From Thelephora terrestris (taxonomy: Eukaryota; Basidiomycota; Agaricomycetes; Thelephorales; Thelephoraceae): a stretch of DNA of 64,000 nucleotides. The stretch's first letter is position 1. Every line of letters begins with the position of its first letter. Positions 8,720-38,926 of the stretch are shown here, one piece after another. The position numbers were made by a program, and so were the translations under genes. Location of the stretch: positions 1,736,001 to 1,800,000 of the forward strand of contig WIUZ02000004.1 of the NCBI GenBank assembly GCA_015956445.1, given 5' to 3'. The notes beneath the pieces were generated by a model. It searched no databases, had not been told where the DNA came from, and saw nothing but the letters and a program-made list of their open reading frames with translations.

Positions 8720-8846
8720 GGCAAGATGGCCGAGCGGTCCAAGGCGTGTGACTCAAGCGAAAGGGGCCAAAACCCCATCGTTTGCCTGATATTTCGGGTT
8801 TCTCATCAGGGTAATCCTGGCGTGGGTTCGAATCCCACTCTTGTCA
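8720..8846 (+). tRNA. tRNA-Leu (anticodon CAA) with an intron of about 40 nt
   Basis: The 7-bp acceptor arm GGCAAGA (8720-8726) pairs with TCTTGTC (8839-8845), with one G-U pair and A as discriminator. The A box reads TGGCCGAGCGG and the T arm is GTGGG-TTCGAAT-CCCAC (8822-8838), so the B box is perfect. The anticodon loop CTCAAG places CAA at 8754-8756. A long variable arm (GGGTAATCCTGG) marks a class II tRNA (Leu or Ser), and the TGGCCGAG start with CAA gives Leu. An intron starts one base after the anticodon, at about 8758, as in yeast tRNA-Leu(CAA). The anticodon stem has one weak pair. A T-run just after the 3' end serves as the Pol III terminator. Confidence 0.9.
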
Positions 8847-30926: not shown

Positions 30927-32519
30927 ATGGTCAAATCCTATTTGTTCTGGTGTTTGGCACTGTTCACAAGCGCAGTTCTCGCCAGTGGTGACCTCACGAG
31001 GATAGGAAACAGGACAATCGAAAGGGTGCGTCTTTCCAGAGCATGTCCACGAAACTCTCAGACGCAGTCAAACAAACCTCGCGTCGAATTTGAGCGTTCC
31101 CTTGAGACAACTGTGTTGACAAGCGCTTGCAGACCGTACAACTACGAACCCATTCATTATATGCACCATACGTCGACCAGGACCTACAAAACAGGTGGTG
31201 GGACTTTGGAGGGGATGCCTATGTTGTACGTACCTTGCACTCAATGGCGATGGCTGTATCTCTAGCTGAGGACGCTTTACTCAGAACACCGCAAAGCACA
31301 TCCGGTTGACCCGTGATCGACCCTCAGAAATGGCAAGCGTAGTCGTGCCGTGGTTTCCGCCCTGCTAATGTACTTCGGGTCGACAGGGCTGGCTGTGGTC
31401 ACGTCTGCCTATCACCTCGATTAACTTTGCCATTGAGATCGAGTTCAGAGTCCGTCCCACATATACCTTTGTTAGTATCTCTACTCATCCGTTGCTAGAT
31501 TTCAGGCGCCCCCAATCACCTGTATGGCGACGGTCTGGCAATCTGGTTAACAAAGGGACGCGCCACGCCTGGGCCTGTATTTGGGAGCATGGGTAGGATC
31601 ATCGCAACTGTACTTCACCGACCCATTATGCCAACCGTGATGTAGATAACTTTGAGGGCCTTGGTATATTCCTTGACACGTACGCACGCATCTAAAGGTA
31701 CCTTTGTCTCTCCAATCAATCCCCCTACAGATATTCGAATGGCCGCCATCCATATTCCTTCCCCCGAGTTGTCGCCATGCTCGGCGATGGGAAGACTTCG
31801 TATGACCTGGGCAATGACGGTGACGCAAACGCTATCGGATCCTGCTCTGTGCGTCAGCTCTAGGAGGTGGTCGTTGAGTCCCCCTGACTTTTCCCAGGCA
31901 TTTTTCAGACGAACGAACATTGCAACCAAACTCAAGATTACCTATCTGAGAGACGGGCTTCTTGATGTATGTTTTCCTCCCATACGCCTAGCATTACAAC
32001 TGACGGTAGCGGTGGTCAGGTCAAGATTCACTACAAGGCCTGTGAGTGTACGTGTTTAGAAGCTTGGGAAGGTTTTGACGCATGAAACAGGGGACGATTG
32101 GACGCCATGCTTCACGTTAAGAAACGTTTCGTTACCCGAGGCGCCATTCCTTGGGTTCTCAGCCCTGACTGGCGACGTTTCAGACGAACACGAGTACGCA
32201 TTCCCAGCTTCTGTCAGACTCATCTGAGTTGACAACATTCCTCGTTTGTCTCAGCATCATCAGCGTCACCACCTACTCTGCCATCCTGTCCAGCACAAAT
32301 AACCCGCGCGGCAAGATCCAACCTGAGGGGTCTGGTTACTCCGGGTGGTTCTGGACCCTTGCCAAGATCGTTTTCTTCATCGGCGCCGTTGCGGGTGCTC
32401 TATATGGATACAAAACTTATACTCTGAGGAGCGCACACAACTTCAACAGTTATCCCCGGTCGCCTGGGATTGGGGGCACGGGCCTTGGCGGTGGTGGTTT
32501 CTACGAAAAGAGGTTTTAA
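30927..32519 (+). CDS. Legume-like (L-type) lectin cargo receptor, VIP36/ERGIC-53 family
   Basis: ER-Golgi transport lectin that binds high-mannose glycoproteins. Signal peptide MVKSYLFWCLALFTSAVLAS at the start, then THSLYAPYVDQDLQNRWWDF, FGGDAYV, RLTRDRPSEMA, GWLWSRLPITSINFAIEIEF, HLYGDGLAIWLTKGRATPGP, DNFEGLGIFLDTYAHA, HPYSFPRVVAMLGDGKTSYD, TNIATKLKITYLRDG, PFLGFSALTGDVSDEHD and IISVTTYSAILSS. The carbohydrate- and calcium-binding blocks (YGDGLA, DGKTSYD) are intact. A C-terminal membrane helix (FWTLAKIVFFIGAVAGALYG) and a Gly-rich cytosolic tail ending in EKRF follow. About nine short introns. It resembles Emp46/Emp47 and VIP36 without a long stalk. Confidence 0.9.
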
Positions 32520-33283
32520 TCTCTTAACGCGGATCGCTGAAAATGCAGCACCAAGTCTTGATCAGAAAGTACATCGTTGCCTTGGGAAATGGATGTCCTT
32601 TGTAGTCACAATACACGTCCTCTTATTCATTCGTGCCTGCCTTGGATTGTTTTCGGATCACCAGCCGAGCCCGATGAGCAGCCAAAGCTTCAAGTAATTC
32701 ATATCGGATGTGCCGACTGAAGCGCATCAGTGCTACGCCGCCACTGACCGCCATGTCATGGATCTGGCCGGAGTCGCACGTGACGGGCGCGAGATCCTTT
32801 CAGTGGTGGTCGGCAACACGGGCCATCCGATCGTCGGGCGCCTATGGCCTCCACAACCGAAAACCAGTTGCGAGCCTTTGAGGACAACGTATCGAAGTTT
32901 TCGTGAGATAGAAAAATCAACAATAATTCAATGCACAGGGAACCTGGATAAATCTATGGCAGACTCGCCCATCTGCTTTCTATAAAGGCGACTTATGAGT
33001 TATTGAATAAAAATTGTGGTCATCCACGTCGATTGCAGCCTTGCATCCGACAATGATATCTATTTATTTATTTTTAATGGGATTGTTTTAGCGGGACTTG
33101 AGTTGGTTCGCTGCGATCCTCAGTCGGGCGGGGGTAGGGAGGGGTAGGGCTGGGTACGGTTCCCATTTTTGTTTTGCACGCTAGTTACGTAATAGAGGGT
33201 AAATGCAAATGTGAAGCTGGTGCGGAAGGAGGCTCGACAAGACCACCTTGGAACTCCTCATCCTATTCTCGAGACTGAACATA
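32520..33283. other. 764-base spacer with AT tract and G-rich tract
   Basis: 3' flank of the lectin gene, a CACGTGAC motif at 32777-32784, an AT-rich stretch near 33057-33080, then a G-rich tract at 33126-33154. No coding frame is supported. Confidence 0.6.
33126..33154 (+). other. G-quadruplex-like tract
   Basis: Six runs of three to five G (33126-128, 130-134, 137-139, 141-144, 147-149, 152-154) with loops of one or two bases. This fits the usual G4 pattern of four or more G-runs with short loops. It lies about 130 bases before the start codon of the next gene. Confidence 0.7.
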
Positions 33284-36200
33284 ATGCCTCTCAAAGGCCA
33301 CCAGAGGACCAGAAAACAGAAGGCCCACGTCGCCGAAATGGGAAAACAGCGGTGGTTGCCTAAGTCACATCCTGACGAGGCAGAGGGAACCAGCCCCGAG
33401 GCAGAGGATATCATCCCTGAAATCATTGTTCCCAGGGACCGCCGTCTTTTCTCGAAGGCAGAGAAGAGATTTAGAAGGGAGCGCGATGAAAACCGAAGGT
33501 TTCGACGAAATTCGATGAGACGAGAACAACACCTGCACGAGAAGGTGAAGAGGTTGGAAGAAGAGTCACAGGCTCAGTTCGAAGAGGGGGTAAAGGAAGG
33601 GGTGAGGGTGACCCGTGAAGGCGAAGTTGAAGGGCTCCAAGGTAAGGTCAGGGACCTGAAGAAGGACCTGGCAAGACACAACGCTCGCGACCGTCGAGAA
33701 CCATCGCGAGTCGACCACGCGGTCCGGAAGGCTTTGACATCCGATGGCGACCCTGACCCGAATCTACCGATTGTACGGTATGTCAAGGACCGACGAGGGA
33801 TCGTTCGAGACTGGGCGCGCAAGGCGATTTTGACGCTCGTCAATGTGGGAGTCCCGATATCAAAAACGTGGATCGTCACGAAAACAAACGCGGACGCACT
33901 AGGAATCGTGATTATTGGGCGATGGAGTACCCGGACGAGTGGGCGAGTAGTTCGCGAGGGGGGAATCGCGGCGGGACTCATGATAACGGGATATGTTTTG
34001 ACGTGCATTTGTTCGTAGTTCAAATGCTTTGATTACCTTCGCCACTCACTCGTTATTCAAGCGATGACAATCAGTGGTGATGGGACCACCCACAAAAATA
34101 TTGAATTCTCGTCAAGGCACGCCACAATCATATCTTCAGACAACACCCCCCCGAAGGACATCTTCCTTGGGGTTATCCCCGAGGTAAACCACACCACCAG
34201 CACTCAATTTGAGGGTTGGAAACATACAGTACAGGACCTGTGTGGAACATACAACAAAAGTCCTATTGGGAACGCTGCCCCTGCCGACCCGACTAGGATA
34301 TGGGAGAAGTTGAGAGGGTATCTGAGCGATCACGCTGCGGACCAGAAGAAGCTCTCGGGCATGCTGGAGCATTTTCGGCGGGATTGCGATCGAGAACTCC
34401 GAGGGGAAGCTGCGATGCTCTCGGGCGAGTACAGGGAGGAGTGGGAGCAGGTGTTCAAGGAGAAAGGGAAGGAGATGATTGATGAGCTTGGCGGTCCTGA
34501 GCTTTACAACACACTCTCGCTCGGTGAGCAGCTTCAGTTTGCAAAGCGGCTAATCCATGAGGCACAGATTTGCCTTGGCGAACGGGTATATCAACGGTTG
34601 CCACCCGACGAGAAGGCAGCCATAGATTACTGGGTCTGGTCCGGGTGCGCGATGCACAAGGATCTGAATGCGATGAAAGGCGGGGTTAACCGGATGGCAA
34701 GCTGGTGGAAGGAACATGGTGATGGAACTGCTCCAGTTGCGTTGATGAACAAGTTCAAGGCAATCGCTGCAGATTCTGGCTCACTTCCAGAGGAATCGCT
34801 GGCTGCAACTGGAGATAGGGGAGGAGCAAAGCTGACAGGCCTTCTAGGTGCACTCGTCAAACACAGGGAGACAAAGAAAGGCCACCAGGAACGTTTTCGG
34901 GCATTCTCGATGAAGTTTCTCGACACGTCACAGCCAATTCAATTCCCGGACACGAGCAACAATCGATATCAAAGTCATGGCTTTGCCGCAACCGAAATTC
35001 TCCACCACCGAGATCTCTACCTCTCTTTCTTACATGAAGTGGCTGACTCGAAATCCCTGCGTGGCGAACTGAATCACCTCGAACGGAATGTCCTGGCTGG
35101 TCTCAACGACCCTCCCACACTCTCAGAACTCTCTGTTATGTCACTCTACTCTCAGGCGATCAGCATTCCTTTTATTCAGCACATCCGCGCCCCAAATGAT
35201 CTCCCCTTGAACGGACTAGATCTCGGTACCGACTACGATCTTATCAAAAGTCACATGGAGGCCGTCATCAAGGAACCCAATCTTTTAATTGGACAGGCCA
35301 CCTCACATGAAATCGGGACATTGTACGGGCACCCATGGGATAACGAGGCTGTCATCGAGTTTATCCAAGCCAACCGGAGCTCCCTCCCGAATCTACGAGA
35401 TATTTTGGTCGCCTTCTTCCAAGGCGCACTTGAGACATGGCAAAGTTTTACTCGGGATATTTGCGGTGAGGCTAAGGTGACGGGCGCAACCCCCGAGCAA
35501 CGGCGTCTTGCTTTCAGGCATCCGGCAAATGACCTCAATGAGGGCGCACTTGGTCTTCTTCGCCGAGAGTACCGTGCCTTCCCAAAGATCACGTTCAGCA
35601 TGGTTAACATGAAGCTCATGTCAAGGTCAGTCCTATATAGTTTTGTGTGTCGAGTCGGAATACTCACAGCATCTGAAGGCTGAATCCAGGCACCGTGGAT
35701 TACATGGGCAATCTCTCTCCCGATGGGAAGCGTTTCCTTCGAGGCCAAGCCCGAGAACAGGATGAGAGGAAAGAGCACAGAGGCTTCCTTCTATCGCAGG
35801 CAGAAGAAGACTCCAGGAATGCAAAGGAAAAGCGAGCGGCCTCGGACCGACGCAAAAAACGGGTTGACGATCGACAGGCGAGACTCAACAATTTTGAGCC
35901 AATCCTCAGCATCAAAGAGTTGAAGAAGATGACTGTCGATGGTGACAAAGCAGCCCGAATCAAGGAACAGCTGTCTTGGCACAAGCATGTTGGTAAGGAC
36001 GTCAACATTCCAACGGGATTTCATGCATTCCGTAAGCCAAAAGCCTGGGTGGCCATGATTCAAGCAGTGCGGAGAAGCCTTCGTGGGGAAGCCCACCTGA
36101 AAGCCAAAGGTATGTACAGGTGGATTCCATAACGGAACAAGCTCAGGGATCACACAGAGCCCGAGGCGATTGATGAGGACGTTGATCCCTTTGCCGGCAT

Positions 36201-37401
36201 TGAGACTGCATCATCATCGGACGCAGAACAATGCAATGATGACGACGGTTTTGCCACTTTTCACAGTCGCGATGAACGTCTCCTTGCCGACCTTGCTCTT
36301 TTTGATGACGTCTGCCTTGATTCGGCTGCCAGCTCTGAAAACGAAACGACTGGCATTGAGGACGGGGACACAGACTCGGAGGTCGAAGGCACTTACCTTT
36401 CTGACAAAGGTATGGATCCCAAAGAGGTTGAGGATGAAGGGCCGACAGACCCCAGCCATTGGTTTTCGGATGGTGCGGGCCTTGGAATCATCCCGCCGAT
36501 GCCTACCCAACAGACCGAAAATCAACAGCCTCAGCACCTTGCTGGGTGCAAGTGGACCAGCGAGAACTGGTCTTGCTCTTACGACGCCGTGTTCATGTCA
36601 CTCTGGGCTATCTACAAGCAGTCATCTCCTGGCTGGCGTGAGGGCTGGGTAGAGTACTCACCAAACTGGAACGGTCCACTCAGCAATAATTTTGATCATC
36701 TTATCCTCCTCGCGCACACCCCAGTCAGCCCCGAAAGCCAAACCGAGTGGTTTTGTCGTTATCGCGATCGCTTTCGCGACCAACTGTCGTGCGCCGATCT
36801 GGGCTCATTCCCACGTTTGGGACCGGTCCCAGCCTCAGCTTCTCGGATCCTCCAGCTTACCTTTGGCCGGTCTGATGGGCCTTATGTTGAGCAGGACCTT
36901 ATCTGTTCAAGATGTGGGGCGCTCACCAAGGCCAAAATTGACACCCGTTTCCTCATGGGCGGTCTTGGACGTGGTTCCCGGCGGAACCCTGCCTCTTTGC
37001 ATACCGTCTGGGAAGAGTTCCTCCGACGCTACCAGACGAAACCATCGCCTGGGCAAGCCGGATGGTGCTGCCGTGGTCAAAAAAGAGTCGAGCGGTTGAG
37101 GATGCCGGACGTCCCTTGGATCTGGTTCGAACGAGAGAAGACTTCACCCGTGGGACCCTCCCCGACTATCACATTCGGCTCCTCGCCCCAACAGCTCACC
37201 TATAGCCTGCGAGCCATCATCTATGCTGGCGGAAACCACTTCACGGTCCGGTTCCGTGAAGGATCCAGCGGGTGGTGGAAGCACGACGGCCAGCTCATGT
37301 CCGGAGTCCCGCAACCCGATAACATCCAATCCGAGGCCGAACTTCTCACGAACAACGAACGCTTCGCTTGCATTTCAATTTATCGTCGGGATGACCTTTA
37401 A
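33284..37401 (+). CDS. Large accessory-family protein with D/D/E-like blocks and C-terminal Cys/His peptidase-like domain
   Basis: About 1,300 residues, seemingly one gene. Exon 1 is 33284-34010: start MPLKGHQRTRKQKAHVAEMG, a basic coiled coil, then DHAVRKALTSDGDPDPN. A 51-nt intron (34011-34061) joins it to TISGDGTTHKNIEFSSRH. Next come DHAADQKKLSGMLEHFR, VWSGCAMHKDLNAMKGGVNR, FPDTSNNRYQSHGFAATEIL, a helical part (PTLSELSVMSLYSQAISIPF) and HPANDLNEGALGLLRREYRA. An intron at 35626-35678 joins KLMSR to LNPGTVDYMGN. A Glu/Asp-rich linker follows, then a papain-like or USP-like domain: Cys in ENWSCSYDAVFMSLW (36574-36576), a CxxC (36904-36915), His in AGGNHFTVRF (37237-37239) and Asp 37285-37287. 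One junction near 36110-36155 is unresolved because TAA 36130-36132 is in frame. I recall similar proteins repeated in agaric genomes; function unknown, perhaps mobile. Confidence 0.7.
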
Positions 37402-37772
37402 AATGTTAGTTCTTCCGTATGTTCACCAACTCGGTCTCGTTCTCACAGCCCTTGTCGCAGATTCGCACCCATGCTATTGGGTTCTCGATGTTTCCCTATG
37501 TAAACCCCCCAGCCGCATCCTCTATCTATGCATAAACCTATTCCACACACTATGTAAATGGTATCTTACATGTGCGATTTATTTGTTTCGAGACGATTAT
37601 AAAGAGGTGTTTGGCAGGGAAAAGCTGACGTAAGCGGTTACGATCATTTTGGTGGCGCTGCCGACCACCACTTTCAGCTTCCCAGTTCTGAACAACATCC
37701 GCATCCCATCCATCCCCTGACAGCGTCGACGCTGAATAGACCTGATTACCGCCAGGACAGTGTCTTCCAAGG
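37402..37772. other. 371-base spacer, no gene
   Basis: 3' flank of the accessory gene and upstream region of the dynactin gene. No inverted repeat matching the left flank of the accessory gene was seen by eye. Confidence 0.5.
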
Positions 37773-38926
37773 ATGCAGCAGCCAATCTATTACTCCCGCA
37801 CTGAGTATATTGAGACTGTATGTATTGATTGCCAGAACAGGGCGTTATCTATGGCTTACGCTTTGAACGTCCGCTGGCCCCATGGGATTTACTCGCGTGG
37901 CTTGCTTTGCCCAGGATACGGGAAACAAGGTATCTCGCAAGGCGATCATCGCTGGACCACAAAATATCATCCTTGGAGGCAAAACGATCATCTCAAATGG
38001 TGCGATCATTCGGGGTGACTTGAGACGAACTGGAAGCGGGCACACGGTCGTAATTTCCTTGGGAAGATACTGCCTGATTGGAGAGGGGTGCATTATGCGG
38101 TACGTGTGCTTTTTTTCTCAGCTTGAGAGTGCGCGTCTACCCTTGCCTGTTGCTGGTTTTGCTCCGTCGCCAAACTATCCGCGACACCAAAATGGACTGG
38201 TGCTACGGGTGGACCAGACGCGCCGCCGCATGAATGGAATAATTATTGCGTCTGATGCTGATGGTGACCCTTCCTTTCCGAACGACCCGCTACACTCTGT
38301 GGATGCGCTGCAGGCCGCCGTACAAGACGTATCGAGGAAATTTCAATTATTACCCCATGAAGATAGGGGACCACGTCCACATCGGGGCTGGGACTGTCGT
38401 TGAAGCTGCCACCATTGGTAACAACGTTGAGATTGGGAAAAACTGCGTGATAGTGCGTCTGCTCTTCTCAACTCTTTTTCTATCGTGTCAGAGTGGAGCC
38501 GTTACCGTTCCCCCGTTTCCAGTGCACGTTGCATCGGGTTTGCCGAGGGGCTTGAGCGTGGGGGGTTGGAGCAGGCCGATATTTTTGATCGAAGCTCTTC
38601 CGCTCCCTTCTACGTCCGTAGCGGAGTCGCGCTCGCTGACATGACTCGTGCCTGTGGTGCAATTTGACAGGGGAAATTTTGCATAATCAAGGATTGTGCG
38701 AAGATTGAGGACAACACGATACTACCTCCGAACACGGTAGTGCCTGCCTTGGCTGTGTTTCGTGGCTCACCAGGTTTGTTCTCAATCTGGTGCGGAAATT
38801 CCAGGGGTGATGAGCGTGTGATCTGCAGGGAGGTTTGTTCAGGAGTTGTCCGAATCTACGCCAGAACGCGCCGAGGCCATGACGAAGCAATATTACAATC
38901 GGTTCGTTCCTATGCAGGATCGGTAG
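37773..38926 (+). CDS. DCTN5: Dynactin subunit 5 (p25)
   Basis: Subunit of the pointed-end complex of dynactin, the dynein cofactor; left-handed beta-helix of hexapeptide repeats. Exons 37773-37817, 37915-38099, 38314-38452, 38671-38773 and 38829-38926 join in frame to 189 residues. The protein reads [133 protein letters not shown] and a C-terminal [16 protein letters not shown]. The length fits the family (about 180-190). Introns 2 and 3 are 214 and 218 nt, much longer than the 45-65 nt norm here. Confidence 0.94.

Follow-up and report, generated by a model that had tools for sequence, protein, structure and literature searches.

The USPs (peptidase family C19) are enzymes with established peptidase activity, and human USPL1, of peptidase family C98, is SUMO-specific. 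Cysteine proteases of this general kind have been described on several mobile elements, with Ginger1 transposons having an OTU or Ulp1 C-terminal domain, Mutator elements carrying Ulp1 and one Trichomonas protein combining Transposase_11 with Peptidase C19 (PMC2836005). Helitrons and Helentrons carry VTD or OTU domains, and reactivity towards ubiquitin probes has been shown for three VTD domains, from two Helitrons of zebrafish (PMC9741609). In Agaricomycetes, Kyakuja (KDZ) elements have been described with CA..TG ends and without terminal inverted repeats (TIRs) and can carry TET/JBP, which fungal elements of many kinds have acquired and which the author of that account takes to be a means of evading silencing (PMC12730594). 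Among the matches listed in a search of mostly open-access literature, no paper dealt with the transposon family reported below or with a Helitron bearing a USP-type domain.

The window analysed here, a 64,000-nucleotide stretch of the Thelephora terrestris genome, holds what we judge with good though not full confidence to be an autonomous cut-and-paste transposon, its D...D...CxxH...E transposase extended by a USP-fold isopeptidase tail likely to strip ubiquitin or SUMO. Positions 33284-37401 of the forward strand form one gene of four exons encoding 1,321 aa, stop-free once three introns are removed, in agreement with the first-pass annotation, which had proposed a multi-exon gene of some 1,300 residues and had placed both the start codon (33284) and the stop codon (37399-37401) correctly. 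The stop-to-stop frames of the window (33215-34018, 34019-35683, 35677-36132 and 36133-37401) are joined via these three short introns. Exon 1 (33284-34010), placed from frame and splice sites and found in 9 rows in a search of the species' own genome, runs from the start codon through a basic/coiled-coil-like N-terminal region to an end part that joins the transposase core (residues about 243-764), encoded by exon 2 (34062-35625). Exon 3 (35679-36109), placed from the frame, encodes a charged linker and a small segment (LSIKEL...SWHKHVGKD...) for which Pfam scans gave no match above chance and no family, while exon 4 (36158-37401), placed from frame and splice signals, encodes an acidic linker and the C-terminal peptidase and ends with the stop codon. 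Intron 1 (34011-34061; 51 bp, GTTCGT...AAG) was placed from the frame and by eye in an alignment of twelve copies, in which its donor and acceptor align across the window's own clade; for introns 2 (35626-35678; 53 bp, GTCAGT...AAG) and 3 (36110-36157; 48 bp, GTATGT...CAG) the placement comes from phase and from the splice signals of the window copy. The joined full frame was derived for the window copy alone, and a single transcript would run across all four exons. A second clade of copies seemingly has its own intron near the position of intron 1.

The gene sits inside a DNA transposon of 4,867 bp with TIRs and a 7-bp target-site duplication (TSD), an element that the first-pass annotation had overlooked (32804-37670, forward strand, termini TGG...CCA). 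A DNA search of the species' own genome with window positions 32200-38400 as the query found several copies, including those on C3, C7 and C1, that end at the bases matching 32804 and 37670. Inverted-repeat comparison of these ends gave the left TIR TGGTGGTCGGCAACACGG (32804-32821, forward strand) and the right TIR, reverse complement TGGTGGTCGGCAGCGCCA (37653-37670, reverse strand), the terminal inverted repeats of the window element reading TGGTGGTCGGC...GCCGACCACCA and the ends at 32804 and 37670 reading TGGTGGTCGGCA.../...TGCCGACCACCA with CTTTCAG on either flank as identical left (32797-32803) and right (37671-37677) copies of the TSD. Other copies are flanked by 7-bp TSDs of their own (GTGTGTT, ACCTTAG, GATCGAG, TATGATA, GGTTATC, CAAGGAG, GTCCTTC, TAGCTTC, CATCTAC and GTTCGCG), including TTGAAAC at an internally deleted copy of 926 bp. 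Both ends were available for 13 copies, comprising 12 that have coding parts (in some cases broken or interrupted) and the 926-bp deletion copy, and the TSD is perfect in 12 of the 13, the exception lying on C6; five core loci (C7:789-796k, C1:407k, C17, C45:147k and C45:2174k), like a deleted copy on C1:4087k, were retrieved without one of their ends and stand outside this count. As a control, 7-mers lying 10 bases further out matched in none of 20 short copies, and displaced 7-mers matched in none of 11 long ones. When 25 TSDs were compared, A or T was present at position 2 in 19 and at position 6 in 24, a symmetric preference expected of a dimeric transposase. Between the copies on C23 and C56 identity is 99.1% across 4,873 bp, and a broken copy on C7 has two pieces that share 98.8-99.0% identity with the window copy. 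TIRs common to the copies and a TSD of constant length, the marks of a TIR transposon, are thus both present, and the gene is the transposase gene of a mobile DNA element.

In the species' own genome, a search allowing up to two mismatches for TGGGGACCGGCAACCCGC, the second clade's inverted repeat, found 41 forward and 40 reverse matches, compared with 2 and 2 for the reversed pattern. Inspection by eye found 24 pairs of these repeats lying 658-682 bp apart, 20 of which were retrieved as short derivatives of 668-682 bp (leaving out one on C2, one on C36 and two on C59). Each of the 20 agrees with a longer copy at its two ends, 14 have a perfect 7-bp TSD, and two, L081 and L083, are identical across 668 bp at sites with different TSDs, indicating that the second (sister) clade has moved recently. 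The enzyme moving the short derivatives would be that of the second-clade relatives. In the window's own clade the inverted repeat is scarce, with 13 matches when one mismatch was allowed and 4 for the control, and no burst of short derivatives was found in this clade beyond the 926-bp deletion copy and the deleted copy on C1:4087k. The idea of a transposase-like protein, already raised in the first-pass annotation, is therefore borne out by the TIRs, the TSDs, the many copies and the short derivatives.

The transposase core was found in 19 rows, grouped as 17 loci, in the species' own genome, 14 of these rows being aligned and L036 and L046-L049 left out as near-duplicates or fragments. The motif order is D...D...CxxH...E, all on the forward strand, with Asp249 in SGDGTTH (34079-34081) kept in 10/10 covering rows, Asp332 in GYLSDHAADQKK (SDHAADQ; 34328-34330) in 11/11, the CxxH motif Cys438-Ala-Met-His441 (34646-34657) in 14/14, Asp443 of HKD just after it (34661-34663) also in 14/14, and Glu736 in NDLNEG (35540-35542) in 12/12 covering rows. 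From this pattern Asp249, Asp332 and Glu736 would be the catalytic residues. An RNase H-type DDE fold with Asp443 as the second Asp had been suggested previously, a spacing rejected here because Asp443 belongs to the CxxH block; by motif order rather than geometry, Asp443 is probably not catalytic and Asp332 the better candidate. For the fold itself support is partial, only the helical middle of the predicted structure matching the DDE transposase Hermes, a hAT enzyme. The structure model is of low confidence (pLDDT 68.7), opening with three strands and a helix at pLDDT 40-67 and falling to 26-55 near the Glu; its poorest regions are those with the proposed catalytic D, D and E. The suggestive Hermes alignment begins at the CxxH block and covers only the helical middle, 152-169 residues. 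Foldseek comparison of the core model with PDB and BFVD gave no match at E <= 0.001; in a second structural look Hermes was the sole RNase H family among the matches listed, which leaves room for others. Comparison by sequence with solved structures gave none credible (one row, E 1.4), and no Pfam family matched the window pieces or the 14 core rows.

The hAT motifs used for comparison stand in the order D...D...CxxH...E. The window core shares this order, and by this and its helical insertion domain it may be distantly hAT-like. A CxxH after the second D has been described for hAT, Kolobok, P and MuDR (PMC3706591), and 7-bp TSDs are known for hAT7 and Kyakuja (PMC12730594), so that with Hermes as the only standing structural match it is a serious possibility, if a little short of an even chance, that the family is a member of one of the described superfamilies (hAT, KDZ/Kyakuja, Dada or other) but has diverged too far for the tools used. 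The absence of any Pfam match argues against this. The hAT dimerisation domain PF05699 was absent at E <= 1 from the window pieces, the 14 core rows and three longer second-clade frames, with the same model matching three other places in the species' own genome, and the genome's true hAT used as a profile, uninformative with two rows only, gave a probability of 0.2. The TSD of hAT elements is 8 bp, or 5-7 bp in described variants, compared with 7 bp here, and unlike hAT the core has an interval of about 105 residues from the proposed second Asp to CxxH, with NDxNEG around the Glu. Placement with KDZ found no support, PF18758 matching neither the window nor the 14 core rows and hhalign giving a probability of 0.1 with shallow profiles; these tests, of limited power, agree with the earlier remark that KDZ motifs are lacking. 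Kyakuja ends, CA..TG without TIRs, also differ from those found here. Dada elements, which have no TIRs and insert in small RNA genes, were rejected on the TIRs of this family. The sole match in an Rfam scan of the window was a tRNA at 8720-8846, outside the element. On viral contigs 23 and 62 pattern stretches were found, none of them confirmed as relatives.

The C-terminal part of the protein (residues 1034-1321; 36535-37398, forward strand) is predicted to be a USP-like papain-fold cysteine peptidase, its model (pLDDT 85.8, pTM 0.86) having a USP fold and thereby favouring the papain-like or USP domain suspected at first. The solved structures listed as matches to this model are USP-family enzymes at 8-16% identity. 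For the peptidase alignment 15 of 22 rows were used (L013, L021, L022, L026 and L028-L030 being broken, near-duplicate or fragments), in which Cys1047, the proposed nucleophile (WSCSYD; 36574-36576), and His1268 (GNHF; 37237-37239) are kept in 15/15 rows and Asp1284 (WWKHDG; 37285-37287) in 14/15, with Asn in one. Judged on sequence, the order Cys, His, Asp is that of USP (C19) and USPL1 (C98) peptidases. The domain of the window alone gave no sequence-family match and no solved structure by sequence, the best family matches among the 15 rows being UCH (E 0.0021, 2 rows) and C98 (E 0.041, 3 rows), and the peptidase profile matched USPL1 with E 0.011. Further cysteines are positioned like a zinc site, one of which the window copy lacks. 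The residues singled out by the first-pass annotation (Asp249, Asp443, Glu736, Cys1047, His1268 and Asp1284) all lie at the bases it gave and, being conserved among the aligned copies, exceed chance.

Core and peptidase side by side is the usual state of the family in the species' own genome, the peptidase adjoining the core at 14 of 17 core loci and the remaining three (C7:789k, C17 and C45:2174k) all being truncated or broken. Of the 22 peptidase rows, 16 belong to these 14 loci, two to deletion derivatives on C1 and the other four to places that lack the core. The trees of core and peptidase both separate two clades, with the second clade partly unresolved and long branches flagged, and have the same order within the window's clade, in which the window groups with C3, then C10, C2 and C13. 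Values of dN/dS were computed for 55 core and 105 peptidase pairs and reported where dS was under 2, giving 0.079-0.124 for the core (17 pairs) and 0.121-0.225 in 21 of 22 peptidase pairs (19 transposon-transposon, 2 Helitron-Helitron), the one other pair, C2 against a Helitron, reaching 0.557 at large distances. These low values indicate that both parts are kept by selection, the peptidase slightly more loosely.

Such purifying selection among copies, together with the open 1,321-aa frame, is what might be cited for a domesticated host gene that serves genome defence or regulation and has retained its transposon ends. This we regard as very improbable, as a self-propagating family likewise shows selection across divergent copies and as copies, closely similar ones included, lie elsewhere in the species' own genome with flanks and 7-bp TSDs of their own. 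The findings fit a selfish element, and the suggestion of a genome-defence protein has accordingly been set aside. It is improbable, if less so, that the transposon is real but its tail self-processes the fusion, thereby freeing the transposase, or merely binds ubiquitin-like proteins, removing no tags elsewhere. A long acidic linker does precede the peptidase, the window copy is short of one cysteine of the likely zinc site, and inactive transposon-related deubiquitinase domains (iVTDs) exist (PMC9741609), but the conservation of Cys, His and Asp, the low dN/dS and the USP-family enzymes among the listed solved matches argue against this reading.

A second carrier of the peptidase was found among the four places without the core in the species' own genome. 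At C10:680774-687991 a 2,406-aa frame has the peptidase at its end and matches both Helitron_like_N (PF14214, E 7.8e-26) and PIF1 helicase (PF05970, E 1.6e-17), the combination that identifies a Helitron. By eye, the frames at C3:868k and C18:70k have the same helicase sequence upstream of the peptidase, while for the fourth place, C3:399k, one search gave an open frame of 1,851 aa and another 334 aa, the retrieved piece showing that of 334. The Helitron peptidase domains form a separate branch of the peptidase tree, indicating no recent swapping between transposon and Helitron in this genome. The presence of the domain on both a transposon and a rolling-circle element suggests that tag removal helps mobile DNA.

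Under the preferred reading of an autonomous transposon with an isopeptidase tail, the transposase would bind the inverted repeats, excise the element and join it to cuts staggered by 7 bp, with the second-clade relatives also mobilising the 0.67-kb non-autonomous derivatives. We infer an isopeptidase role for the tail, in which the putative triad Cys1047-His1268-Asp1284 would free either the transposase itself or proteins of host repair or chromatin at the site from ubiquitin or SUMO, this removal of tags keeping transposition from being shut down. More tentatively, and doubtful as it stands, the family may represent an undescribed superfamily whose transposase depends on its built-in USP/USPL1-type isopeptidase, the module having passed between these transposons and Helitrons. 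The traits of such a superfamily would be TGG..CCA termini, a 7-bp TSD, a D-D-CxxH-E core of its own and a long insert from the second Asp to CxxH. If true, removal of ubiquitin or SUMO tags would be a general counter-measure separately acquired by unrelated fungal mobile elements. The findings bear on why unrelated transposons carry ubiquitin/SUMO proteases, a question made testable by the presence in one genome of both carriers, of homologous USP-type domains under selection and of recently moved short copies, which could act as donors. An answer on whether transposition needs the peptidase, and on the tag removed, would also give a function to a multicopy fungal gene family matched by no Pfam model in the scans.

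Compared with described systems, the window family resembles Kyakuja in being a DNA transposon of fungi with 7-bp TSDs and an additional enzyme, in Kyakuja an optional TET/JBP, and differs in its TGG..CCA ends with TIRs and the lack of a KDZ Pfam match. Like Ginger1 and Mutator it couples a TIR cut-and-paste transposase to a ubiquitin/SUMO-type cysteine protease, but the protease of those elements is OTU or Ulp1 whereas here a USP fold is predicted, on an element with a 7-bp TSD. With VTD Helitrons it shares a mobile-element protein bearing a deubiquitinase-type domain; in place of VTD or OTU the domain here is, by its model, USP-type and occurs on both a TIR transposon and a fungal Helitron. 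From USPL1 and the USPs the peptidase is set apart by the low identity of the listed matches and by being part of a transposase. Given the precedents of Ginger1, Mutator and the Helitron VTDs, transposons with a protease tail are known, to which the present family adds a variant with a USP-type tail.

The inverted repeats of clade 2, the sister clade to that of the window copy, bound non-autonomous elements of 658-682 bp at 24 places in the T. terrestris genome, 20 of which were fetched (L081-L100), with perfect 7-bp duplications present at 14 of these 20. The short derivatives split into several subgroups, some members being 97-100% identical within their subgroup. Across 25 target-site duplications, position 2 was A or T in 19 and position 6 in 24, a bias that is a symmetric target preference.

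The Kyakuja-Dileera-Zisupton (KDZ) transposase model gave 125 matches in the same genome, such that KDZ elements are abundant here, with none of the matches listed in this own-genome search lying inside the window. The USP-like peptidase of the window element also forms the C-terminus of a 2,406-aa Helitron protein with DUF6570, Helitron_like_N and PIF1 domains (G000:C10:680774-687991; L051, L076), and peptidases of this Helitron branch were seen at three further places (L023, L024, L050).

Less than 200 bp beyond the transposon end in the window starts a frame with hexapeptide-repeat-like sequence (37867-38403), presumably dynactin p25/p27-like, the promoter of which may be affected by the insertion. 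The sole Rfam match within the window at gathering thresholds was a tRNA at 8720-8846 (RF00005, 42.4 bits), which at 127 bases long probably contains an intron.

Some other copies of the element are broken or interrupted. The near-identical relative on contig C7 (G000:C7:787763-795960; L034, L077, L049; about 99% identity) is divided by a stretch of about 3.8 kb that has inverted ends and abounds in CCATGG-type repeats, and it is truncated within its 3′ part. A 1,007-bp repeat occurs four times with 99% identity (L052:2787-3793, L013:2619-3625, L016:495-1507 and L044:475-1482), one of these lying where the C1 copy is broken on its 5′ side. Two occurrences lie inside the C14 copy with about 12 kb between them, resembling the LTRs of one retrotransposon, and the single occurrence in the C6 copy resembles a solo LTR.
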